From an uncultured Algimonas sp. (GTDB lineage Bacteria; Pseudomonadota; Alphaproteobacteria; Caulobacterales; Maricaulaceae): 64,000 nt of DNA. Of the stretch, positions 7,827-33,522 are shown in pieces. The stretch is from assembly GCF_947498175.1 (NCBI RefSeq), contig NZ_CANMJB010000004.1, forward strand, positions 124,001 to 188,000, read 5' to 3'. A program made the translations under genes and the position numbers. Numbering within the stretch: the stretch's first letter is position 1; each line of letters opens with the position of its first letter. The notes beneath the pieces were generated by a model, which saw only the letters and a program-made list of their open reading frames with translations, searched no databases and was not told the DNA's origin.

Positions 7827-8618
7827 TCAGCCCAGAGTCTGGCCGTCGTCGATGGTCGTGACCGTGCCGGTGACCTGACGCGACGCATCGGAACACAGGA
7901 ACAGAACGGCCCCGTCCAGTGCGTCGGCGTCGATGACGCGGCGGCGCGGCCAGCGGGCCAGCAAGGCTTGCCCGTAGGGCGTGTCGAACATCCCGTCGTT
8001 TATCTCGGTCTGGATGTAGCCCGGCGCGATCATGTTGACGTTCACGCCCATGCGCGCCCAGTCCAGCGCCAGCACCCGGCCCATCTGCGACACGCCCGCC
8101 TTGGAGGCGGCGTAGAACGGCATGTTGGGCGACACGTCGTAGCTGGTGATGGAACTGATAATGAGGATGCGCCCGCGCTCTGAGTCTCTCGATCCGTTTT
8201 CCATCATCCGCTTGGCCCCTTCGCGCGCTGTCAGGAACGCGCCCTTCATGTTGACGTCGAAGGTGGCCTGGAAATCTTCCACCGGATTGTCGGTCGCCCG
8301 GCCCCGGTCGCGCGCCATGCCGGCATTGGCGACGACCGTGTCCACGGCGCCCAGTTCGCCCGCGATCCGGTCATAGGCTTCGAGCGTCTGCGCTTCGTCG
8401 CTCACGTCTAGCTCCACGGCGATCGCCGTGCCGCCATGATCCTTGATCTCGGCTTTCAGGGCCGCCAGCCGGTCCGTGCGCCGTGCCGCCAGCGCGACCT
8501 TCGCCCCGTGCGCGGCCAGCACCTTGGCCATGCGTTCGCCCAGCCCGGACGACGCGCCCGTGACGAGCGCCACCCGGTCCGAGAGATCGTAGGTGAAGGG
8601 GGAGTGGGGATCGCGCAT
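7827..8618 (-). CDS. Short-chain dehydrogenase/reductase
   Basis: Classical SDR of 263 residues with the Rossmann cofactor motif TGASSGLG (20-27), NAG (98-100), catalytic Ser near 155 and Y169-x3-K173 (FYAASKAG), and the tail TGTVTTIDDGQTLG seen in FabG-like enzymes. Arg residues right after the second strand (AARRTDR) favour NADP(H). Substrate cannot be told. It lies in one operon between a family 2 glycosyltransferase (27 bases upstream) and phoD (5 bases downstream). Confidence 0.93.
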   Translation of the reverse strand: MRDPHSPFTYDLSDRVALVTGASSGLGERMAKVLAAHGAKVALAARRTDRLAALKAEIKDHGGTAIAVELDVSDEAQTLEAYDRIAGELGAVDTVVANAGMARDRGRATDNPVEDFQATFDVNMKGAFLTAREGAKRMMENGSRDSERGRILIISSITSYDVSPNMPFYAASKAGVSQMGRVLALDWARMGVNVNMIAPGYIQTEINDGMFDTPYGQALLARWPRRRVIDADALDGAVLFLCSDASRQVTGTVTTIDDGQTLG

Positions 8619-8645
8619 GCGCGCGTCATATGAGACGCGACAGGT

Positions 8646-9650
8646 TTAGGGAAGAGGCTGGACCCGGTTCAGCCGCCCGGTCAGGCGCGAGGGACGCTTG
8701 ACGAGAACGGGCCAGAGGGCGCGGCTGCCCTTGGGGTAGGCGCGGCGGGTGCGGATCATGGCTGGCGCACCCCTGAGGCCGTGCCAGAGGCCGCGCGCGG
8801 TCGGCCGGAACCGCCCGGACCGGACCGCGCTCCAGAGCAGGAGCGCCAGATTGGCGGCCAGAGTGACCGGCAACAGACCGATCATCAGACCCAGCGGCAT
8901 GGATGAAAACCAGGTCCAGAGGCGGTTGCGCGTGCCGTGATAGACGGCGAAATCGGACGCCGTGCCGGTGATCCCGGAGCCGACATGGTGGACGACGGCG
9001 TCGTGGACTTGCACGGCCCGGCCGCCCAGCCGGCGCATCTTGAGCGCCAGATCGACATCCTCGTGATAGCAGAAGAAGCGTTCGTCGAACCCGCCGACGG
9101 CCTCGAACGCCTCGCGACGGTAGGCCGCAGCGGCGGCGCAGGGCCCGAAGACGGGAAAGTCTTCCGTAACGGTGCGCACAGCCTGGCCGTAGCCAGCCCG
9201 GTAGGCGACGCCGTAGATGGAATATTCGTCGCCCGTGCCGTCGAAGGTCGGCGCGGCTCCGGGGGGTCTGTCCGCTGTGATCTGCATCGAGCCGAGCATG
9301 GTGACGAAAGGATGCCGGGTCGTGGCGCGGTGCAGGGCGCGCAGCCAGTCGGGACGTGCGAACGCGTCGGGGTTCAGAGCCACGATCCAGTTGCCGCGTG
9401 CCCGCCGGGCCGCGAGATTGTTGCCCGCCGCAAAACCCAGATTTGCGCCCGCTTCGATGACCGTGAACCGTGCGTCCAGCTCCGGCAGGGTGGCCAGCGA
9501 TCCGTCCGTGCTGCCATTGTCCACGATGAAGGCTTCGAAACGGGTGAAATCCTGCGCGGCCAGCGCGGCGACGGCCCGGCGCAGATAGTCGCCGCCGTTG
9601 TAATTGACGATGATGACGGAAAAGAACGGAATGTCGGATGCGGTGTCGAT
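8646..9650 (-). CDS. Family 2 glycosyltransferase, apparently starting at ATC
   Basis: GT-A inverting glycosyltransferase resembling rhamnosyltransferases of cell-envelope polysaccharide assembly. The reading frame opens IPFFSVIIVNYNGGDYLRR, then IVDNGSTDGS, NLGFAAGNNLA, IVALNPDAFARPDWL (acceptor/metal region) and GGFDERFFCYHEDVDLALKMRRLGG. The C-terminus has one hydrophobic stretch (MPLGLMIGLLPVTLAANLALLLWSAV). The frame has an in-frame TAG just 3 codons before 9650 and no ATG, GTG or TTG before the first beta strand; an AGGAG followed by six bases and ATC at 9650 is the best start. Starting at the first internal ATG would delete the nucleotide-binding strand. First gene of the operon with the SDR and phoD. 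Confidence 0.88.
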   Translation of the reverse strand: MDTASDIPFFSVIIVNYNGGDYLRRAVAALAAQDFTRFEAFIVDNGSTDGSLATLPELDARFTVIEAGANLGFAAGNNLAARRARGNWIVALNPDAFARPDWLRALHRATTRHPFVTMLGSMQITADRPPGAAPTFDGTGDEYSIYGVAYRAGYGQAVRTVTEDFPVFGPCAAAAAYRREAFEAVGGFDERFFCYHEDVDLALKMRRLGGRAVQVHDAVVHHVGSGITGTASDFAVYHGTRNRLWTWFSSMPLGLMIGLLPVTLAANLALLLWSAVRSGRFRPTARGLWHGLRGAPAMIRTRRAYPKGSRALWPVLVKRPSRLTGRLNRVQPLP

Positions 9651-23674: not shown

Positions 23675-23753
23675 TCATCCCGGGTTCGACGACCCTGCCC
23701 CGGACTCCGGTCCACGGACCCAAGATCCGCAAGGGTCATCGGATCCGGGATGA
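23675..23753. repeat. Palindromic repeat (family 2) reaching into leuD
   Basis: Perfect nine-base arms TCATCCCGG and CCGGGATGA about 60 bases apart, with further G+C-rich complementary sequence between them. The right arm lies inside the last codons of leuD. TCATCCCGG arms are common in dispersed palindromic units of alphaproteobacteria. Confidence 0.65.
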
Positions 23754-24335
23754 GGAATCCTCTTTTCTGGTTTCGAACGCGGCGATCGCGTCGCTTTGCT
23801 GTTCCAGATATCCGAGCTCGTCCACGCCTTGCATCAGGCAGTGACGCGAGAAGTCGTCCACCTCGAAATCGTAGGTGCCGCCATTGCCGGGCAGGCGGAT
23901 CTGCCGGGCGCCCAGATCGACCGTCACTTCGGCGCCCGGATGGTCGAGCAGCCAGCGATGGGCGCGGGGATCGATCACGATGGGCAGCAGGCCGTTCTTG
24001 ACCGCATTGCTGCGGAAGATGTCCGCGATTTCGGAGCTGATGACGACGCGGAAGCCGTAATCGCTCAGCGCCCAGGGCGCATGTTCGCGCGAACTCCCGC
24101 AGCCGAAATTGTGCCCGCCGACGAGGATCCGGCTGGCCTGTGCGTCCGGCGTGTTCAGCAGGTGGTCCGTCGGGCTGCCGTCGGCGGCCCAGCGCCAGTC
24201 GTTGAAGGCATGCACGCCGAGTCCGTCGCGCGTGGTGACGGACAGGAAACGCGCCGGAATGATCTGGTCCGTGTCGATGTTCTCGGTCGGCAGGACGACG
24301 GTGCGGGAGGTGAGTGTGGTGAGGGGTTCAATCAC
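23736..24335 (-). CDS. leuD: 3-isopropylmalate dehydratase small subunit
   Basis: Small subunit of the isopropylmalate isomerase, partner of LeuC. 199 residues; motifs [38 protein letters not shown] and [11 protein letters not shown]. The start is GTG at 24335, following GGAGAC by eight bases and overlapping the end of the small ORF upstream by 8 bases; the longer ATG frame runs back through that ORF. The extreme C-terminus (EDSSSRIR) is encoded by one arm of a palindromic repeat, so it is probably not ancestral. Confidence 0.96.
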
Positions 24336-24504
24336 GCGATGTCTCCTGCCGCCGGGCGAGAGTGCGCGCGGTTCGAGCGCGGTGCATCCGTGTGCGCCGC
24401 TCGTCCCTCGCACTGTCTTCCTCCACCCGGATCATGAAATGAAGGAAAGCAAAGATTGCAAGGCTGGGGGCCATGATCAACATCGCGAGGACGAGGGCGC
24501 TCAT
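24328..24504 (-). CDS. Small membrane protein ORF between leuC and leuD (58 aa)
   Basis: 58 residues: one membrane helix at 2-23 ([20 protein letters not shown]) followed by a strongly basic tail ([17 protein letters not shown]). Start ATG 24504 shares bases with the leuC stop (ATGA) and its stop overlaps the leuD GTG by 8 bases, which argues that it is translated as part of the operon. No family recognised. One of four such ORFs in successive junctions of this operon. Confidence 0.65.
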
Positions 24505-25886
24505 TCTTCCAACCCCGCCACGCTCGTCACATATCCCGCCACCGCACTCGCCGCCGCCGTTTCCGGGCTGGCCAGCACGGTCCGCGCGCCCGGTCCCTGC
24601 CGTCCGGCGAAGTTGCGGTTGCTCGTGCTCACGACCAGCTCGCCGGGTTCCGCCTTGTCGCCATTCATGGCGATGCACATGGAGCATCCCGGCTCTCGCC
24701 ATTCCGCGCCCGCTAGCCGGACGATCCGGTCCAGCCCTTCGGCTTCGGCAGAGGCTTTCACACTTTCGGACCCCGGCACGACGATCATCCGCACATGGGG
24801 GGCGACGACCCGGCCGCGCAGCACATCGGCCGTCGCACGCATGTCTTCCAGCCGCCCATTGGTGCAGGACCCGACGAAGACACGGTCCACGTTCTGCGCG
24901 GACAGGCGCTCGCCGGAGCGGACCTTCATGTAGGTGAGGGCCCTTTCGTCCGCCTCGCCGAAAACGTCTGGGATGAGGTCGTCGACAGGGGCGGCATGGC
25001 CCGGATGGGTGCCGTAGGTCGCCATGGGACGAATGGCGGACGCGTCCATGCGGACGGTCTTGTCGAAGGTCGCGCCGTCGTCGGTCCTCAGTGCGCGCCA
25101 GCGTTCGACGGCGGCGTCGTAGTCTTCAGGCGCATGCGGCCGTCCGCGCAAATATCGATAGGTCGTCTCGTCCGGCGCGATCAGACCGCAGCGCGCGCCC
25201 GCCTCGATGGACATGTTGCAGACCGTCATCCGGCCTTCCATGCTCATCTGTTCGAACACGCGTCCGCGATATTCCAGCGCGTAGCCCGTACCCCCGCCGA
25301 CGCCGATTTCGGCGATGATGGCCAGGATCACGTCCTTGGGCGTCACGCCCTGGGACAGCTCGCCCTCCAGCTCGATGGCCATGGTCTTGGGCTTGCGCAT
25401 CAGAAGGCACTGCGTCGCGAGCACGTGGCCGACCTGCGTGGTGCCGATGCCGAACGCGATAGAGCCGAACGCGCCGTGAGTGCTGGTGTGGCTGTCGCCG
25501 CAGACGATGGTCATGCCTGGTTGAACCGCGCCCAGCTCCGGTCCCATCACATGGACGACACCGCGCGCGTCACTGTCCCAGCCATGGGTCTCGATGCCGT
25601 GCGCGGCAGTGTTGGCGAGCAAGGTCGCGACCTGGGTGCGGGACTGCTCGGATACATAGAGCGGCTCGCCAGTCTCGTCCTTCAGGGTCGGCGTGGAATG
25701 ATCGATCGTCGCCAGCGTCCGGTCCGGACGGCGCACCGGAAGACCGCGCTCGCGCAGCACGGTGAAGGCCTGGGGCGAAGTGACCTCATGGATCAGGTGC
25801 AGGTCGATGTAGAGCGTCGCCGGATTGGCGCGGCTCTCGGGCGTGACGACATGCGCGTCCCAGATCTTGTCGAAGAGGGTCTTCAC
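24501..25886 (-). CDS. leuC: 3-isopropylmalate dehydratase large subunit
   Basis: Aconitase-type [4Fe-4S] enzyme isomerising 2- to 3-isopropylmalate with LeuD. 461 residues; [12 protein letters not shown] opening, [29 protein letters not shown], and cluster cysteines in [10 protein letters not shown] and [12 protein letters not shown]. Start set at GTG 25886: it overlaps the stop of the preceding small ORF (GTGA) and gives the usual family N-terminus; an upstream GTG adds five residues. Coupled to small ORFs on both sides. Confidence 0.97.
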
Positions 25887-26059
25887 TTTTGCCAACTCCA
25901 CCGGGCCGTTTTGAGAAACGGAATGGAGCCGATTCCGAGACAGAAACCTACGCAGGCAATTTGGACGACCCTATAGGAATATGCCGTATATATATAAAGC
26001 AGACATGCGGCTGCGGACGAGAGCGACCATAAATAGTCAAGTGCGTTGAGAGGTTTCAT
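25883..26059 (-). CDS. Small membrane protein ORF between leuA and leuC (58 aa)
   Basis: 58 residues with two hydrophobic segments (about 12-28 [17 protein letters not shown] and 33-50 [18 protein letters not shown]) and a basic/aromatic end (KTARWSWQK). ATG 26059 overlaps the leuA stop (TGATG) and its TGA overlaps the leuC GTG. Lower G+C than the flanking enzymes (a run reading TATATATAAA lies inside). Unknown function; likely inner membrane. Confidence 0.65.
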
Positions 26060-27606
26060 CAATGCTGCGCCGCCAGTTTGCCTTGCCGAACGGCGCGCCG
26101 CTCGATCCGGTTGATGACGTCGAGCCACGCCTGCGCGCTGGCCAGCACCGTGTCCGTGCTGGCACCGCGACCTTGATAGCTCTCATATTCGGTCGCCACG
26201 CGCACGGTCGCTTCGGCCATGGCGTCTTCGCCGCCTGAAACGGAATTCACGCTGTAATGCTCCAGCTGCATCGGCGTGTCGGTGATCTGGCTGATCGCGT
26301 CGAAGACAGCGTTCATCGGACCTTTGCTGCGGCTGACATGTTCCTCGCGGCGGCCGTCCGCGTGGGATAGCATGACGCGGGCCTCCGGCATGCGGTCGGC
26401 GTCCGATCCGGCGGAGACGGACAGGCTTTCGATCTCCCACGGGCCGCTCTGTCCGACCGCTTCGCCCAGCATAAGCGCCTCGATGTCGCTGTCGAACACT
26501 TCCTTCTTGGCGTCCGCCAGTTCCTTGAAGGCGACGAAGACGGATTGGAGCTGGTTGTCCGACAGGGTGAAGCCGAGTTTGCTCGCCCGGTTTTTCAATG
26601 CCGCCCGTCCCGAATGTTTGCCCAGCACCAGATTGTCCGTGCTGACGCCCACATGTTCAGGCTTCATGATCTCGTAGGTTTCCCGGTTCGCCAGCACGCC
26701 GTGCTGGTGAATGCCGGACTCGTGCGCGAAGGCGTTTTTGCCAACGATGGCTTTGTTACGGGGCACCATCTGGCCCGTGATGGCGGAGAGCAGCTTCGAT
26801 GCCCCATAGAGCCCTTCCGTGCGGACATTCGTGTCCAGTCCGAAGAAATCCTTCCGGGTCCGGAGCGCCATCACGACTTCCTCCATCGCGCAATTACCCG
26901 CGCGTTCGCCGATGCCGTTCAGCGCGCATTCCACCTGCCGCGCTCCACCCCGAATGGCGGCGAGCGAATTGGCGACGGCGAGGCCCAGATCGTCATGGCA
27001 GTGAGCCGACCAGATCACCGTGTCCGCGCCCTCGACTTCGGTCGTCAGAAAACGGAACAGGTCTCCGATCTCTTCGGGCGTGGTGTAGCCGACCGTGTCG
27101 GGCATGTTGATCGTGGTCGCGCCGGCGCGGATCACGGCCTCGCAGACGCGTTTCATGTAGTCGCGCTCGGTCCGGATCGCGTCTTCGCAGGAGAATTCGA
27201 CGTCGTCCGTATATTGGCGGGCCAGTTCGACGCCTTGCGTCGCGCGACGCACGATCTCGTCCTTGTCCATTTTCAGCTTGAATTCGCGGTGCAGCGGGGA
27301 TGTGGCGATAAAGGTGTGGATGCGGCCGGACTTGGCGGGCCGGATCGCCTCGCCCGACGCTCGGATATCGCCGTCGTTGCAGCGGGCGAGCGAGCAGACG
27401 GTGACGTCCTGCACGGCTTCCGCGATGGCCTTGATGCCCTCGAAATCGCCGGGCGACGCGGCGGCGAACCCCGCTTCGATCACGTCCACGCGCAACCCCT
27501 CCAGCGCCTCCGCCATGGCGAGCTTCTGCCCGGCCGACATGGAAAAGCCGGGCGCCTGTTCGCCGTCGCGCAGAGTGGTGTCGAAGATTTTGACGGCGGG
27601 GGTCAT
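26059..27606 (-). CDS. leuA: 2-isopropylmalate synthase
   Basis: First committed step of leucine synthesis: condenses acetyl-CoA with 2-oxoisovalerate. 515 residues; catalytic TIM barrel (KIFDTTLRDGEQAPGFSM, INMPDTVGYTTPEEIG, WSAHCHDDLGLAVANSLAA, ALNGIGERAGNCAMEEVVMAL), subdomain with GIHQHGVL and GKHSGRAALKNR, and a C-terminal leucine-sensing domain (about 380-515). ATG 27606 overlaps the stop of the small ORF upstream (ATGA). Confidence 0.98.
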   Translation of the reverse strand: MTPAVKIFDTTLRDGEQAPGFSMSAGQKLAMAEALEGLRVDVIEAGFAAASPGDFEGIKAIAEAVQDVTVCSLARCNDGDIRASGEAIRPAKSGRIHTFIATSPLHREFKLKMDKDEIVRRATQGVELARQYTDDVEFSCEDAIRTERDYMKRVCEAVIRAGATTINMPDTVGYTTPEEIGDLFRFLTTEVEGADTVIWSAHCHDDLGLAVANSLAAIRGGARQVECALNGIGERAGNCAMEEVVMALRTRKDFFGLDTNVRTEGLYGASKLLSAITGQMVPRNKAIVGKNAFAHESGIHQHGVLANRETYEIMKPEHVGVSTDNLVLGKHSGRAALKNRASKLGFTLSDNQLQSVFVAFKELADAKKEVFDSDIEALMLGEAVGQSGPWEIESLSVSAGSDADRMPEARVMLSHADGRREEHVSRSKGPMNAVFDAISQITDTPMQLEHYSVNSVSGGEDAMAEATVRVATEYESYQGRGASTDTVLASAQAWLDVINRIERRAVRQGKLAAQH

Positions 27607-27821
27607 GAGATGCGTTCCGCCCTCAAAATCTTGTAGCGGCGCAGTAGCATCAAGTGGGAAACCGAAACCCATATGACGAGAACGATGCCGCCCAACTCGG
27701 CCATCAGACCCCAAGGTCGGCCACCGCCTGTCAGCCAGGCAATAGTAAAAGACGCGGCCCCGAAGAGCCCTGCCGTTTGTAAGGCGATCACGATGTAGAG
27801 AATGTATTCTCGCGTAATCAT
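27603..27821 (-). CDS. Small membrane protein ORF between the ACT subunit and leuA (72 aa)
   Basis: 72 residues with two predicted membrane helices (YILYIVIALQTAGLFGAASF near 6-25 and GGIVLVIWVSVSHLMLL near 44-60) and a basic end (RRYKILRAER). Start ATG 27821 overlaps the stop of the ACT-domain gene, stop overlaps the leuA start; both are four-base ATGA overlaps. No family recognised. Confidence 0.68.
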   Translation of the reverse strand: MITREYILYIVIALQTAGLFGAASFTIAWLTGGGRPWGLMAELGGIVLVIWVSVSHLMLLRRYKILRAERIS

Positions 27822-28123
27822 CCAGCTCGCTCCGCCCGCTTGCGCCGCCCGACCTTTTCTGCGCTCACCACATTGTAGAGCCGCTCCAACTGGCGGCAGA
27901 GAATATCCAGATTGCGCGGCCCGCCAATATCCTCGATCCGCACCAGCAAGTCGAAATCCCCGTCCACGCGCTGCGTGCAATGCACGTCGCGATAGTCGTA
28001 GCCCCGCCGCTCGATCGTCCCGAGCGCGCGGATCAGCGTGCCGGACACGTCGTGCAGCACGACCTTGAGCGTGCCGGACACGCCGGAGGGTCCGAAGGTC
28101 TTGTCGCGTTGGAGTTCAGTCAT
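27818..28123 (-). CDS. ACT-domain acetolactate synthase small subunit (IlvM-like length)
   Basis: 101 residues with a single ACT domain (GTLKVVLHDVSGTLIRALGTIERRGYDYRDV ... DLLVRIEDIGGPRNLDILCRQLERLYNV). Position right after ilvB identifies it as the regulatory subunit of acetohydroxyacid synthase. It lacks the second domain of usual IlvN (about 160 residues or more) and so resembles IlvM in size. ATG 28123 overlaps the stop region of the small ORF upstream by 8 bases. Confidence 0.82.
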   Translation of the reverse strand: MTELQRDKTFGPSGVSGTLKVVLHDVSGTLIRALGTIERRGYDYRDVHCTQRVDGDFDLLVRIEDIGGPRNLDILCRQLERLYNVVSAEKVGRRKRAERAG

Positions 28124-28421
28124 CGACTTTTCCCGTCACCTCTCGTGCCGACCGGATCATGCGCACTGCCATTGCGCTCAAGGATGAAGCGTTTGGATGG
28201 CGGGCCAATCGGGCGATGATAATGGCGACAAGGCCGAGAATCAGCCCTTCGAGAACATATCCAAACAAGCTTCCAAGACGCACTAGCCGGTCCCACACAG
28301 TGGGTTCGGTCGTGCTCATCGAGATGTTCATCGTGGTAATCATGTTTCCGAACGCCCAGATGAGCGTGAACGCGATCAGAAACCAGCCGCAGATTTCGAG
28401 TGTGTAGCTAAGTTTTTTCAT
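28116..28421 (-). CDS. Small membrane protein ORF between ilvB and its small subunit (101 aa)
   Basis: 101 residues with two hydrophobic helices (LEICGWFLIAFTLIWAFGNMI near 8-28 and LFGYVLEGLILGLVAIIIARLA near 52-73) joined by a polar linker, and a basic C-terminus. It begins two bases after the ilvB stop and ends 8 bases into the ACT gene. It splits the catalytic and regulatory subunits of one enzyme, which is unusual. No family recognised. Confidence 0.68.
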   Translation of the reverse strand: MKKLSYTLEICGWFLIAFTLIWAFGNMITTMNISMSTTEPTVWDRLVRLGSLFGYVLEGLILGLVAIIIARLARHPNASSLSAMAVRMIRSAREVTGKVDD

Positions 28422-28423
28422 TT

Positions 28424-30163
28424 CTACCGCTCCATCATATCCGCATTGGACCGCCCCGGAGGGACGAGGGGCCAGACGTTCTCGTTCGGGTCGATCTTGA
28501 CGTGCATCAGGACGGGGCCCTTCGTCGCTAGCAAACGGTCGATGCCGGCATCGACTTCGTCGGCGGTGCGCACGAGGAAGCTCTCGATGCGGAACGCCTC
28601 GCCGACTTTCGTGAACTCCGGATTGTCGTCCAGATTCACTTCGGAGAAGTTGCGGTCGAAGAAGACTTCCTGCCACTGCCGCACCATGCCGAGCGCGCTA
28701 TTGTCGAGCAGCACGATCTTGAGCGGGATGCCGTAGCGGTGCAGCGTCTGCAGCTCCTGGATGTTCATCATGATCGAGCCGTCGCCGGAGACCGTGATGA
28801 CGGTGCGGTCCGGCGCGCCGAGCTTCGCTCCCAATCCAGCCGGAAGGCCGAAACCCATCGTGCCGAGGCCGCCCGACGTGATGTGGTCCTTGGGGTCGTC
28901 GAAATAGCAATGCTGCGCGACCCACATCTGGTGCTGGCCGACATCGCAGGTGATGATGGCGCTCTCGGGCGCGCGGCGTGACAGATCGTGTAGGAGCTTT
29001 GGCGCATAAACGCCCGGTGCGGCGTTTTCCTGCGCGCCGTCATAATCCCATTCATGTTGCGTGCGGCGCGAAAAACACAGGTCCCGCCATGGCTGCACTT
29101 GCGCCTTCTCGTAAGGCTCGTTTCTGAACGGGTCGAGCGCGGCGAGATTCTTCTTCAGGCTCCCGTCGAGAAACACATCCGTCGCGCGCAGCTTGGAATT
29201 CTCCGCCACGTCGATATCCATGTGGATGACCTTGGCGTGCGGAGCGAACGTGTCGAGCTTGCCGGTCGCCCGGTCGTCGAACCGCGCGCCCGCCACGATC
29301 AGCAGGTCGCATTCCTGCACGGCATAGTTGGCCGCCTTCAGCCCGTGCATGCCCAGCATTCCCAGATAATGCGGATGATCCGATGGCAGGGAGCCGAGGC
29401 CCTTTAGGGTGGAGACGACTGGAATTTCCGTGCGTTCGACCAGCTCTCGCAATTCCGCGACACCGTCGCCCTGCGCGATACCGCCGCCAATATAGAAGAG
29501 CGGCTTGTCGGCCTGACGGATCAGCGCTTCGGCCTTGGCGATATTGTCCGACGTGCCCATTTCGGGTTTCTGTTTCGGATAGGGCCGCCAGCGGTGACGC
29601 TCCGTCGTGACGGCGTTGGCGACATCCTTGGGCAGGTCGATCAGAACCGGGCCTGGGCGGCCTTCGGCGGCGATGAAATAGGCTTCGCGCACCATGCCGG
29701 GAATGTCGGCCGGATCGCGAACGATGTAGCTATGCTTCACGATCGGCATGGTGATGCCGACAATGTCGACTTCCTGAAAGGCGTCCGTGCCCATCAGATC
29801 GGACGGCACTTGCCCGGTGATGAAGACGACCGGAACGCTGTCCAGATAGGCGTCGGCGATGGCGGTGACGAGGTTCGTCGCGCCCGGGCCGGAGGTCGCC
29901 AAGGCCGTTCCAGTCTTTCCGGTCGCGCGGGCATAGCCGATGGCCGCCATGCCGCAGCCCTGTTCGTGACGGCAGAGGATATGGGTCAGGGACGTCTTGG
30001 GAAGCACGTCATAGACGGGCATGATCGCCCCGCCCGGATAGCCGAAAATGATGTCCACGCCTTCGCGCTCGATCGCTTCCAACAGAAGCTGAGCGCCGGA
30101 TTTCGGATCGCGGTCGGAATAGACCTCGGTGGCCTGCTTCTCGAATTTCGTGGCTGTGGTCAT
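28424..30163 (-). CDS. ilvB: Acetolactate synthase large subunit
   Basis: ThDP/FAD enzyme forming acetolactate or acetohydroxybutyrate from pyruvate. 579 residues: N-terminal GVDIIFGYPGGAIMPVYD and the cofactor-activating Glu in LCRHEQGCGMAAIGYARATG, central FAD region (DDRATGKLDTFAPHAKVIHMDID), and C-terminal ThDP motif GDGSIMMNIQELQTLHRYGIPLKIVLLDN. A 283-base spacer with a mosaic repeat separates it from ilvC. Confidence 0.98.
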   Translation of the reverse strand: MTTATKFEKQATEVYSDRDPKSGAQLLLEAIEREGVDIIFGYPGGAIMPVYDVLPKTSLTHILCRHEQGCGMAAIGYARATGKTGTALATSGPGATNLVTAIADAYLDSVPVVFITGQVPSDLMGTDAFQEVDIVGITMPIVKHSYIVRDPADIPGMVREAYFIAAEGRPGPVLIDLPKDVANAVTTERHRWRPYPKQKPEMGTSDNIAKAEALIRQADKPLFYIGGGIAQGDGVAELRELVERTEIPVVSTLKGLGSLPSDHPHYLGMLGMHGLKAANYAVQECDLLIVAGARFDDRATGKLDTFAPHAKVIHMDIDVAENSKLRATDVFLDGSLKKNLAALDPFRNEPYEKAQVQPWRDLCFSRRTQHEWDYDGAQENAAPGVYAPKLLHDLSRRAPESAIITCDVGQHQMWVAQHCYFDDPKDHITSGGLGTMGFGLPAGLGAKLGAPDRTVITVSGDGSIMMNIQELQTLHRYGIPLKIVLLDNSALGMVRQWQEVFFDRNFSEVNLDDNPEFTKVGEAFRIESFLVRTADEVDAGIDRLLATKGPVLMHVKIDPNENVWPLVPPGRSNADMMER

Positions 30164-30194
30164 GAGATTGTCTCGCTTTGCGAGGCTGAGGTTT

Positions 30195-30435
30195 CGTCAC
30201 CCCTTCCGACCTCACTGCGTTCGGCCACCTTCCCCCTTAAGGGGCACGGAGCGTCTTTGATCGGTCGTCCTGTGGACGGCCGATAGCGCAGTGCCGCACG
30301 GCCTCGCTGTGCGGTCCGAAGCGCATTGCGCTTCGGCAACTCCGCTACAGACATCCAAAGGGATGTCTGCTTAACGCTCCATGCCCCCTTGAGGGGGGAG
30401 CTGGCCGCGAAGCGGTCTGAGGGGGTGATACGGCT
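30195..30435. repeat. Mosaic palindromic repeat between ilvC and ilvB
   Basis: The outer arms are inverted: the left reads CACCTTCCCCCTTAAGGGG then CACGGAGCG, the right CGCTCCATGCCCCCTTGAGG then GGGGAG, ending in GAGGGGGTGA against TCACCCC on the left. Inside are smaller hairpins, for example CCGAAGCGCATTGCGCTTCGG-like (CCGAAGCGC/GCGCTTCGG) and AGACATCC/GGATGTCT. It looks like several palindromic modules nested in one element. No coding potential. Confidence 0.75.
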
Positions 30436-30446
30436 GGGCATGAGGG

Positions 30447-31623
<1,177 letters not shown>

Positions 31624-31638
31624 AGATCGAATACGCGG

Positions 31639-33312
31639 TCACGATGCATCTCCGAAAGGAAAGCTCGTCACCGCGCCCTTGGACGCAGAGCCGACGAGAG
31701 CGGCGAATTTGGCGTAGGCGCCGGAAGTGTCGCGCGGCGGAGACGGTTTCCACCCTTCTGCGCGCGCGGCGAGATCGGCGTCGACATTGATGGTCTGGGC
31801 TTCCACATCGATAGTGATGAGGTCGCCCTCCTCGACGAAGGCAATCGGGCCGCCATGTGCGGCTTCGGGGGCGACGTGACCGATGACGAAGCCGTAGCTC
31901 GCCCCGGAAAAGCGGCCATCCGTGATGAGCGCGACATGATCGGCCAGGTCTTGCCCGACCAGCGCGGCCGTCACGCCCAGCATTTCGCGCATGCCGGGTC
32001 CGCCGCGCGGACCTTCATTGCGGATAATGACGACGTCGCCCTTGTGAATGCCATTGTTCTGGACGACTTCGAAGCACGCTTCCTCGGACTCGAACACGCG
32101 GGCGCGGCCTTCGAAATGCAGTGCGCCGTGGCCTGCCAGTTTCACGACACAGCCTTGGGGTGCCAGATCGCCATAGAGAATACCGTAGCCGCCGCGAGAT
32201 TTGACGGGGTCGTCGAAGCTGCGAACCACGTCCTGACCGTTGGTTTCCGATGCCGCCTCAATCTCTTCGAACAAAGTGCGACCCGTGACGGTCTTCTGAT
32301 CCTGGATCCGCCCATCCGCGACCAGGCGTTTGCCGATCAGGCCCGATCCGCCTGCGGTGTAGAGGTCCGCGGCCATGTAGCGCCCGCCGGGTTTCAGATC
32401 ACCGATGACGGGCGTCGTGCGGCTGACATGATCGAAGGCGTCGATCTCGAAATCATTGATGCCCGCTTCCGTCGCGATGGCGAGCAGGTGCAGGATGGCA
32501 TTGGTCGAGGCCGCCGTGGCCGACAGAGCGATCGCCGCGTTCATCAGCGACTCTTTGGTGATCATCTCGCGCGGCTGGCGGTTCTCGTTCACGCAGTCCA
32601 CGACGCACATGCCGGCGTCATAGGCGGCGCGGGTCTTGTCCTCGTGGATGGCTGGAATGTCGTTCGTGCCCATGGGCGACAGGCCGAGAAAGGTCATGGC
32701 CATCGCCATGCTATTAGCCGTAAACTGCCCGCCGCACGCACCCGCGCCGGGGCAGGCGGCTTTCTCGATGTCTTTCAGTTCGTCCTCGTCGATGATCCCG
32801 GCGGCACAGGCGCCGACAGCTTCGAAGACGTCCTGCACGGACAGATCCTTGCCGTCATGATGACCGGGCATGATCGAGCCTCCATAGAGCACGACACCGG
32901 GCACATTCATTCTGGCGAGCGCCATGCCCGCCGCCGGTATGGTCTTGTCGCAGCCGACCAGGATGATGACGCCGTCGAGCGAGTGACCGCGCACGGCCAG
33001 CTCGATGGAATCGCAAATGACTTCGCGAGACATCAGGCTGGCGCGCATCCCGTCGCTGCCCATGGTGATGCCGTCGCTGACCGCGATGGAGTTGAAGTCG
33101 ACCGGCGTCCCGCCCGCCGCGCGGATGCCCGCCCGGACCGGAACCGCCAGCTGGTCGAGATGCATGTTGCACGGGCCCATATTGGTCCAGGTGTTGAAGA
33201 CCGCGACGATCGGACCTTCGAAACTTTCGTCGGTCATGCCGGATGCGCGCAGCATGGCGCGCGCCGCACTGCGGTCCCGGCCTTTGACGATCGCATCAGA
33301 TCGCTTGTTCAT
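31639..33312 (-). CDS. ilvD: Dihydroxy-acid dehydratase
   Basis: Fe-S enzyme making 2-oxo acids from dihydroxy acids, shared third step of valine and isoleucine synthesis. 557 residues from ATG 33312, chosen over ATG 33318 because AGGA then sits about seven bases upstream. Motifs: [38 protein letters not shown] with cluster cysteines, [15 protein letters not shown] and [20 protein letters not shown]. First enzyme gene of the BCAA operon; a leader ORF and terminator-like hairpin precede it. Confidence 0.98.
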
Positions 33313-33344: not shown

Positions 33345-33373
33345 TAAAAAAACCCGCCTCGGATGGGCGGGTT
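33345..33373 (-). terminator. Attenuator terminator in the ilvD leader
   Basis: On the minus strand AACCCGCC / GGCGGGTT with a seven-base loop is followed by TTTTT, a textbook intrinsic terminator, only about 30 bases before the ilvD start. The 5' arm overlaps ACAACCCG (33368-33375), which can instead pair with CGGGTTGT at 33399-33406 at the end of the leader ORF, giving a mutually exclusive antiterminator. Confidence 0.82.
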
Positions 33374-33396: not shown

Positions 33397-33522
33397 CTAC
33401 AACCCGTTCGCAACCCCGATGAGGAGTACGACTAGACCAGCAATCAGAATAAGCTCGATGCCCATCCCTTGGATGCGGGCTTCGACCTTCACTCTGGGCT
33501 CGTCTTCGCGAAACGGGTTCAT
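33397..33522 (-). CDS. BCAA-rich leader peptide of the ilv-leu operon (41 aa)
   Basis: 41 codons starting ATG 33522 after AAGGCTCCC. The second half is packed with branched-chain codons: residues 22-37 read IELILIAGLVVLLIGV, twelve of sixteen being Ile, Leu or Val. The stop lies 24 bases before the terminator hairpin. Codons 2-4 (AACCCGTT) can pair with AACGGGTT at the end of the ORF, so three alternative pairings exist as in classical ribosome-mediated attenuation. Alternatively it could be a real one-helix membrane peptide; the RNA structures favour a leader. Confidence 0.72.
   Translation of the reverse strand: MNPFREDEPRVKVEARIQGMGIELILIAGLVVLLIGVANGL

Follow-up and report, generated by a model that had tools for sequence, protein, structure and literature searches.

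Small hydrophobic inserts in the gaps of the ilv–leu operon of an Algimonas sp. and its relatives, concentrated between ilvB and ilvN

The ilv and leu operons are classically regulated by attenuation, and their leader peptides, IlvL and LeuL, are encoded at the 5′ end, upstream of a terminator, with an unusually high content of Leu, Ile and Val. The primary work on ORFan and alien genes in operons is reportedly that of Price and colleagues. The presence of such genes inside conserved operons is known (PMC10138114, in the part considered here). Here, we describe a branched-chain amino acid operon in which small hydrophobic open reading frames (ORFs), sm1–sm4, occupy four of the gaps. It lies on the minus strand of a 64,000-nucleotide (nt) stretch of DNA ("the window") from an uncultured Algimonas sp. 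(assembly GCF_947498175.1, contig NZ_CANMJB010000004.1, positions 124,001 to 188,000), in the gene order ilvD, ilvC, ilvB, sm1, ilvN, sm2, leuA, sm3, leuC, sm4, leuD, leuB. Comparison with related loci showed that the ilvB–ilvN gap is a hot spot for hydrophobic inserts; this and an apparent junction-specific demand for continuous translation are the strongest general points of the analysis. In sm1–sm4 the window carries its own set of guests, which varies between loci of the operon, a meaning that differs from the one given in a preliminary description of this DNA. We propose, with a probability of about 0.6, that the gaps of the operon, above all ilvB–ilvN, are a hot spot for small accessory passenger genes, mostly encoding membrane proteins, which four tightly coupled junctions would tolerate only where translation remains continuous. 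The genes concerned are the following (coordinates in the window):

28424..30163, minus strand: ilvB, acetolactate synthase large subunit, named from its sequence and from general knowledge
28116..28421, minus strand: sm1, 101 amino acids (aa), between ilvB and ilvN; family A (see below); predicted two-helix membrane hairpin with a C-terminal helix
27818..28123, minus strand: ilvN, a short ACT subunit, which from its length and general knowledge we take to be IlvM-like
27603..27821, minus strand: sm2, 72 aa, hydrophobic, between ilvN and leuA
26059..27606, minus strand: leuA
25883..26059, minus strand: sm3, 58 aa, hydrophobic, between leuA and leuC
24501..25886, minus strand: leuC, with a likely GTG start at 25886 that overlaps the sm3 stop; the open frame extends to 25901
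24328..24504, minus strand: sm4, 58 aa, one hydrophobic segment and a basic tail, between leuC and leuD
23736..24335, minus strand: leuD, with a GTG start

The preliminary description had reported four small ORFs joined to the enzyme genes by short overlaps or a gap, and their coordinates and junctions were confirmed from the sequence. sm1 starts after a 2-nt gap from ilvB and overlaps ilvN by 8 nt; sm2 overlaps both ilvN and leuA by 4 nt (ATGA in each case); sm3 overlaps leuA by 1 nt (TGATG) and, given the start at 25886, leuC by 4 nt (GTGA); and sm4 overlaps leuC by 4 nt (ATGA) and leuD by 8 nt. Shine–Dalgarno-like motifs for leuC and leuD sit inside the tails of sm3 and sm4, respectively. 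These overlaps suggest that sm1–sm4 are expressed with the host operon. Each of the four exceeds 1.9 on the Kyte–Doolittle scale in a 19-residue window. None matched a Pfam or NCBIfam family, in agreement with the earlier statement that they belong to no known family, and searches of PADLOC and PHROGs gave nothing convincing and nothing above noise for any of them. A PADLOC match of sm1 to ZorA (E 0.006, 13 bits) was confined to the membrane stretch and was taken as noise. The gene finder, a simple codon-usage caller, called none of sm1–sm4 and placed the leuA start too far upstream.

We compared 44 loci, namely the window and 43 others (17 of an initial 20, then 26 more); L050–L052 were omitted as distant. 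Enzyme starts in the relatives were projected from BLAST alignments, and one contig (L049, from G005) lacked ilvB and ilvN. The order of the enzyme genes was constant over the 44 loci, while the contents of the gaps varied. For each gap, the lines below give the number of loci with both genes, the number of gaps of at least 60 nt, and the number of gaps with a hydrophobic ORF, with no limit on uncovered bases:

ilvD–ilvC gap: 36, 5, 0
ilvC–ilvB gap: 37, 22, 2
ilvB–ilvN gap: 43, 33, 29
ilvN–leuA gap: 42, 22, 1
leuA–leuC gap: 40, 18, 6
leuC–leuD gap: 37, 5, 1
leuD–leuB gap: 36, 9, 1
leuB–next gene gap: 36, 0, 0

Under a stricter definition (gaps no longer than 1300 nt, in which ORFs left no more than 70 bases uncovered and one or more ORFs of roughly 40 aa upwards had H of at least 1.9), 28/43 loci qualified at ilvB–ilvN, compared to 38/307 over all operon junctions. 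Gene pairs sampled elsewhere qualified far less often: 3/136 in G000 (operon omitted), 3/158 in G015 and 3/58 in G018, together 9/352 in these three genomes of the family, which rules out a genome-wide habit of hydrophobic gap ORFs. Further genomes gave 0/63 (G031), 5/75 (G040) and 2/71 (G059), and several of the control cases resemble ordinary known genes by eye. Of the four membrane bridges made by a single ORF in 401 kb of the window's genome, three belong to this operon, sm2 being hidden by the miscalled leuA start. In other bacteria, the next ORF is usually close behind ilvB, and a hydrophobic ORF followed ilvB directly in only 2 of 78 checkable loci (80 kept, the best named match being that of Euryhalocaulis caribicus, with IlvB 61% identical). 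We found no earlier description of a hot spot at ilvB–ilvN in the open-access literature, among the matches listed. A short IlvM-like ilvN was present in 44/137 genomes of the window's family, in 8/19 genera (E ≤1e-20).

The inserts come and go, while the enzymes stay. The only hydrophobic inserts at ilvN–leuA and leuC–leuD among the 44 loci are the window's own; G007, found later, has a second one at leuC–leuD. The two closest relatives, G006 (L033) and G015 (L034), have LeuA proteins 91–92% identical to that of the window, and neither has an insert at ilvN–leuA. G006 has a counterpart of sm1 only, which is 41% identical, against 93% for IlvN and 85% for IlvB; its leuC–leuD junction is a 4-nt overlap and its leuA–leuC gap holds a 33-aa bridging ORF. 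In G015, the ilvB–ilvN gap is occupied by a hydrophobic ORF of 70 aa for which no relation to sm1 was detected. Where the window has sm4, G015 has a 289-aa α/β hydrolase, and where the window has sm3 it has a 343-aa gene (L034:10749-11780) that matches DUF4917 (5.7e-69) and, as a defence candidate, the PADLOC model PDC-S21 (2.4e-120). This PDC-S21/DUF4917 gene or its relatives occurred in 4/200 genomes of the order, G015 included. The preliminary description had staked its reading on the small ORFs being kept in close relatives; with the enzymes kept, sm2, sm3 and sm4 are missing from both, while sm1 is kept in one of the two. Its proposal of a dedicated pathway device fares poorly against this turnover, and a scaffold, exporter or sensor needed by the pathway is unlikely. 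Non-hydrophobic guests of 139–177 aa also occur in leuD–leuB and leuA–leuC gaps (L242:13009-13485, L036:3694-4113 and L260:11321-11854), for which Pfam, PADLOC and PHROGs gave no convincing match.

All-against-all BLASTP of the 109 junction ORFs, which include 51 hydrophobic ones, yielded a few clusters, and 26 of the 51 were singletons, most with a low guanine–cytosine (GC) content. The largest cluster (11 ORFs), found exclusively at ilvB–ilvN, forms the core of family A. With a hidden Markov model (HMM) of nine members from which sm1 had been left out, scores were 16.9 bits for sm1 and 12.7 bits for the counterpart in G006, the latter narrowly above the controls (≤11.1 bits for 693 unrelated membrane windows, ≤9.1 bits for 999 shuffles). 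In the 137 family genomes, matches at E <1e-5 were found at ilvB–ilvN in 13 genomes of the genera g1, g2, g11, g12, g16 and g18; this search used a 15-sequence alignment that has all 13 of these genomes as rows, so only a match in G014 was new. This exception is a tandem pair on another contig (L293:5820-6325), outside the operon and between VOC-like and hydroxylase-like genes (both named by eye), while the ilvB–ilvN gap of G014 itself holds another hydrophobic ORF. By eye, two adjacent ORFs of L260 resemble the pair and share its order, and in each of L040 and L253 a single 166-aa ORF appears to be such a pair fused into one. Five ORFs form a chain in the 1270-nt ilvB–ilvN gap of L260 (about 7900-9210), and the HMM assigns three to family A. 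Three loci drawn in by the iterated HMM (L241, L259 and L265, from G105, G077 and G162) were unmatched at E 0.1 in the genome search and were not counted. Among 385 evenly drawn genomes of the class (at most 12 candidates each), family A was found only in G000, apart from a weak match (6.5e-4) inside an 814-aa frame. The structure predicted for sm1 from an alignment of 15 rows has helices at residues 2–36 and 42–74 and a C-terminal helix at 78–100 (mean pLDDT 83).

A second family consists of four ORFs of 139–158 aa at leuA–leuC in four genera, with pairs 66% and 37% identical that are joined at E 1e-4. Family A and this leuA–leuC family are fast-diverging residents across several genera. The other small genes of the window are more isolated among the 137 family genomes. 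sm2 has one homolog, in L037, which lies in the ilvB–ilvN gap of that genome and not at ilvN–leuA (17.8 bits, against maxima of 11.6 bits over 1138 control windows and 8.3 bits over 298 shuffles); it did not reach the E 0.01 standard in the whole-genome search. The one homolog of sm4 (E 4.9e-4) belongs to G007, where it immediately precedes leuD and overlaps it by the same 8 nt. sm3 has no credible homolog, its sole weak match (E 0.007, 28% identity) having two internal stops. A relation of sm4 to 53- and 57-aa ORFs of L037 and L040, suspected by eye, gave no signal above shuffles or controls in either direction.

Gaps of at least 60 nt were bridged by one ORF in 69/114 cases, against 15.2 expected from dinucleotide shuffles, which excludes chance ORFs as the general explanation. 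At ilvB–ilvN, 19/33 were so bridged, against 1.2 expected, and many of the others hold chains of ORFs. A gap was scored as hydrophobic only when a single hydrophobic ORF bridged it; to avoid circularity, the ilvB–ilvN figure is a total over all gaps, and hydrophobic gaps were removed from the continuity test. With these removed, 28/30 gaps at ilvD–ilvC, leuA–leuC, leuC–leuD and leuD–leuB were still bridged by one ORF, against 6.2 expected. From such junction-specific counts (those before ilvB and leuA are given below), leuC, leuD, leuB and ilvC seem to accept upstream DNA only if it forms a coupled ORF, whereas untranslated DNA seems to be tolerated before ilvB and leuA. The earlier suggestion that the ORFs are tuners of translation thus survives to the extent that inserts at several junctions keep translation continuous. 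In the window, the chance of a bridge in shuffles was 0.04 for sm1, 0.22 for sm2, 0.27 for sm3 and 0.52 for sm4, so that bridging alone is weak evidence for sm2–sm4, and their hydrophobicity is the unusual part. In shuffles of the sampled gaps, bridges that were also hydrophobic almost never arose. The other longer gaps of the operon, which the preliminary description did not mention, are bridged as well, none by a hydrophobic ORF:

31469..31642, minus strand: 57-aa bridging ORF between ilvD and ilvC, not hydrophobic, with a 4-nt overlap at each end
30160..30441, minus strand: 93-aa bridging ORF between ilvC and ilvB, not hydrophobic, in DNA partly repeated in the genome
23656..23739, minus strand: 27-aa bridging ORF between leuD and leuB, not hydrophobic

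The ilvC–ilvB spacer DNA (30164-30446) has nine matches in the genome, counting itself, and still forms the 93-aa bridging ORF. Downstream of leuB lies a threonine-dehydratase-like gene (named by eye).

Selection was assessed from mismatches by codon position in nucleotide alignments, which escape the bias of the protein-guided alignments from which NG86 values were obtained. Eight pairs of hydrophobic ORFs had 245, 169 and 327 mismatches at positions 1, 2 and 3 (p=1e-11), against 22, 23 and 20 (p=0.90) in three overlapping pairs, with shared members, of a repeat-like ilvD–ilvC ORF. Taken together, the hydrophobic inserts evolve in the manner of proteins, which this one repeat-like set does not. 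Single pairs differed, the lowest p values being those of L037/L253 at leuA–leuC (p=0.0004), L042/L250 (p=0.0004), L043/L048 (p=0.002) and L259/L265 (p=0.01). Two pairs of the repeat-like ORF had ratios of nonsynonymous to synonymous divergence (dN/dS) of 0.81 and 0.94 with dS of only 0.23 and 0.14, where ilvN dS is about 1, indicating that this stretch is conserved or exchanged as DNA and not as protein. The DNA of the bridging ORF in question (50–52 aa, in L047, L255, L260 and L264) is far less divergent than ilvN synonymous sites, and may belong to a family of repeats or encode an RNA element. In two hydrophobic pairs, too, dS was below that of their own ilvN (L047/L261, 0.29 versus 1.07; L037/L040, 0.48 versus 0.80), from which some guests may have passed between species.

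Upstream of ilvD, the window has the two elements of an attenuator-like leader:

33397..33522, minus strand: leader ORF, 41 aa, rich in Leu, Ile and Val, upstream of ilvD
33351..33373, minus strand: terminator-like hairpin that follows the leader ORF and immediately precedes ilvD

In 31/33 loci, against 57/1650 shuffles, there is upstream of ilvD a short ORF in which Leu, Ile or Val make up at least 8 of 12 residues, and a hairpin with a T run follows this ORF in 31/31 such loci (hairpins counted without a shuffle control). Rfam had no match in the window at gathering thresholds, attenuator-like elements included. The region contains 9 terminator-like sites, against 8.2 in shuffles; the strongest precedes ilvD, and in the window no terminator hairpin follows any of sm1–sm4, although sm2 contains a weak site of 5 pairs. 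The leader resembles those of classical attenuation and probably regulates the operon, which makes an extra sensing role for sm1–sm4 unnecessary. The preliminary description had considered sensing of branched-chain amino acids; the junction ORFs are no richer in the relevant codons than other membrane segments (Leu+Ile+Val fraction 0.513 in 51 junction ORFs versus 0.497 in 182 segments, p=0.43), and neither this idea nor codon enrichment as such was upheld.

If the gaps receive passenger genes, the inserts would be translated as part of the operon, and those that break coupling would be removed, since the downstream enzyme would be starved. The membrane proteins would have a fast-changing accessory role, for example in protection against phages or rivals or in envelope stress, and would draw on the operon chiefly as a source of steady expression rather than for branched-chain amino acid synthesis. 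Several observations weigh against this account. At ilvC–ilvB and ilvN–leuA together, bridging was hardly above chance once hydrophobic bridges were removed (12/41 versus 6.8 expected). The presence of family A at a single junction in six genera, and of the second family at leuA–leuC in four, points to a longer stay than casual passengers would lead one to expect. A defence annotation was obtained for one insert only, and none of sm1–sm4 matched an anti-phage defence model in PADLOC. Protein-level selection was weak in the sm1 pair (46/39/66, p=0.02), absent in the sm4 pair (26/25/29, p=0.85) and not reached in L047/L261 (p=0.23) and L037/L040 (p=0.26); among the small ORFs of the window, the test covers sm1 and sm4. 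Since the loci share ancestry, the counts are also not independent. A related account, tentative and on balance rather unlikely, is that ilvB–ilvN hosts a fast-evolving, sometimes arrayed membrane module (chains of up to five ORFs, some of them not hydrophobic) that uses a housekeeping operon for constant expression, either as a polymorphic immunity or defence array or as a convergent membrane tether of acetolactate synthase mRNA or enzyme.

The strong concentration between the two synthase subunits, in 28/43 loci, would also be expected if the small proteins, above all family A, acted on the pathway, by tethering the nascent synthase or its polysome or by modulating the enzyme or amino-acid export, with their sequences drifting because mainly hydrophobicity and position matter. 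Position is indeed kept while sequence diverges, and no family A match at E <0.01 occurred in those of the 137 genomes without the operon. However, an accessory subunit of the synthase should be present wherever the operon is, and 14/43 loci with both genes carry no hydrophobic ORF at ilvB–ilvN; the family A pair of G014 lies outside the operon, other bacteria usually have the next ORF close behind ilvB, and the third-position excess implies that sequence matters, not hydrophobicity alone. We regard a pathway role as unlikely. It is more unlikely still that the ORFs lack any protein function, being gap DNA that must stay translatable for coupling and that happens to read as hydrophobic where it is AT-richer. 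Repeat-like DNA forms bridging ORFs too, the many singletons mostly have low GC, and membrane proteins are reported to emerge from thymine-rich sequence (PMC7005711). Against this stand the codon-position asymmetry of the pooled hydrophobic pairs, which the repeat-like pairs do not share, the recognisable families across genera, and the near absence of hydrophobic bridges from shuffled gaps. Lack of function may still hold for sm3 and sm4, which are unproven as real proteins; sm2 is probably one, and sm1 is a member of a rapidly evolving protein family and lies where that family usually does. The earlier assertion that the ORFs are not chance is accordingly sound for sm1 and sm2 at least, and unproven for the other two. 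Finally, the many Leu, Ile and Val codons of the hydrophobic ORFs, and a placement suited to coupling with the next enzyme, would fit internal leader peptides that sense these amino acids through ribosome stalling. This is very improbable, given the unremarkable Leu+Ile+Val fraction, the shuffle-level number of terminator-like sites and the leader already present upstream; moreover, stalling in a coupled ORF would cut the next enzyme during starvation, which is the wrong direction.

With passenger genes in the gaps as the preferred explanation, the operon offers a natural test of how tightly coupled operons admit new genes and of which junctions enforce continuous translation. It brings to light an unnamed family of membrane proteins that evolves fast but keeps a fixed address and is open to direct deletion tests, and it serves as a warning that a place inside a pathway operon is poor evidence of a function in that pathway. 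Like the leaders IlvL and LeuL, as generally known, sm1–sm4 are short hydrophobic ORFs in a branched-chain operon, but they are internal and followed by no strong terminator, and the junction ORFs lack enrichment in Leu, Ile and Val. With the membrane proteins that arise de novo from thymine-rich DNA, as described in part of PMC7005711, they share small size, restriction to a lineage, hydrophobicity and often low GC, whereas several of the present ORFs fall into families that span genera, with a third-position excess, and the ORFs lie inside an operon. The likeness to ORFan and alien operon genes, as far as the considered part of PMC10138114 describes them, lies in unrelated or lineage-restricted genes between pathway genes, presumably on the same transcript. 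As in such insertions, sm2–sm4 are absent from their junctions in both close relatives and sm1 in one, with the operon intact, and no homolog was found outside the lineage (for sm1 in the class sample, for sm2–sm4 in the 137 family genomes). The present case differs in that one junction is a strong hot spot and that the guests are mostly small membrane proteins, fitted in by overlapping starts and stops.

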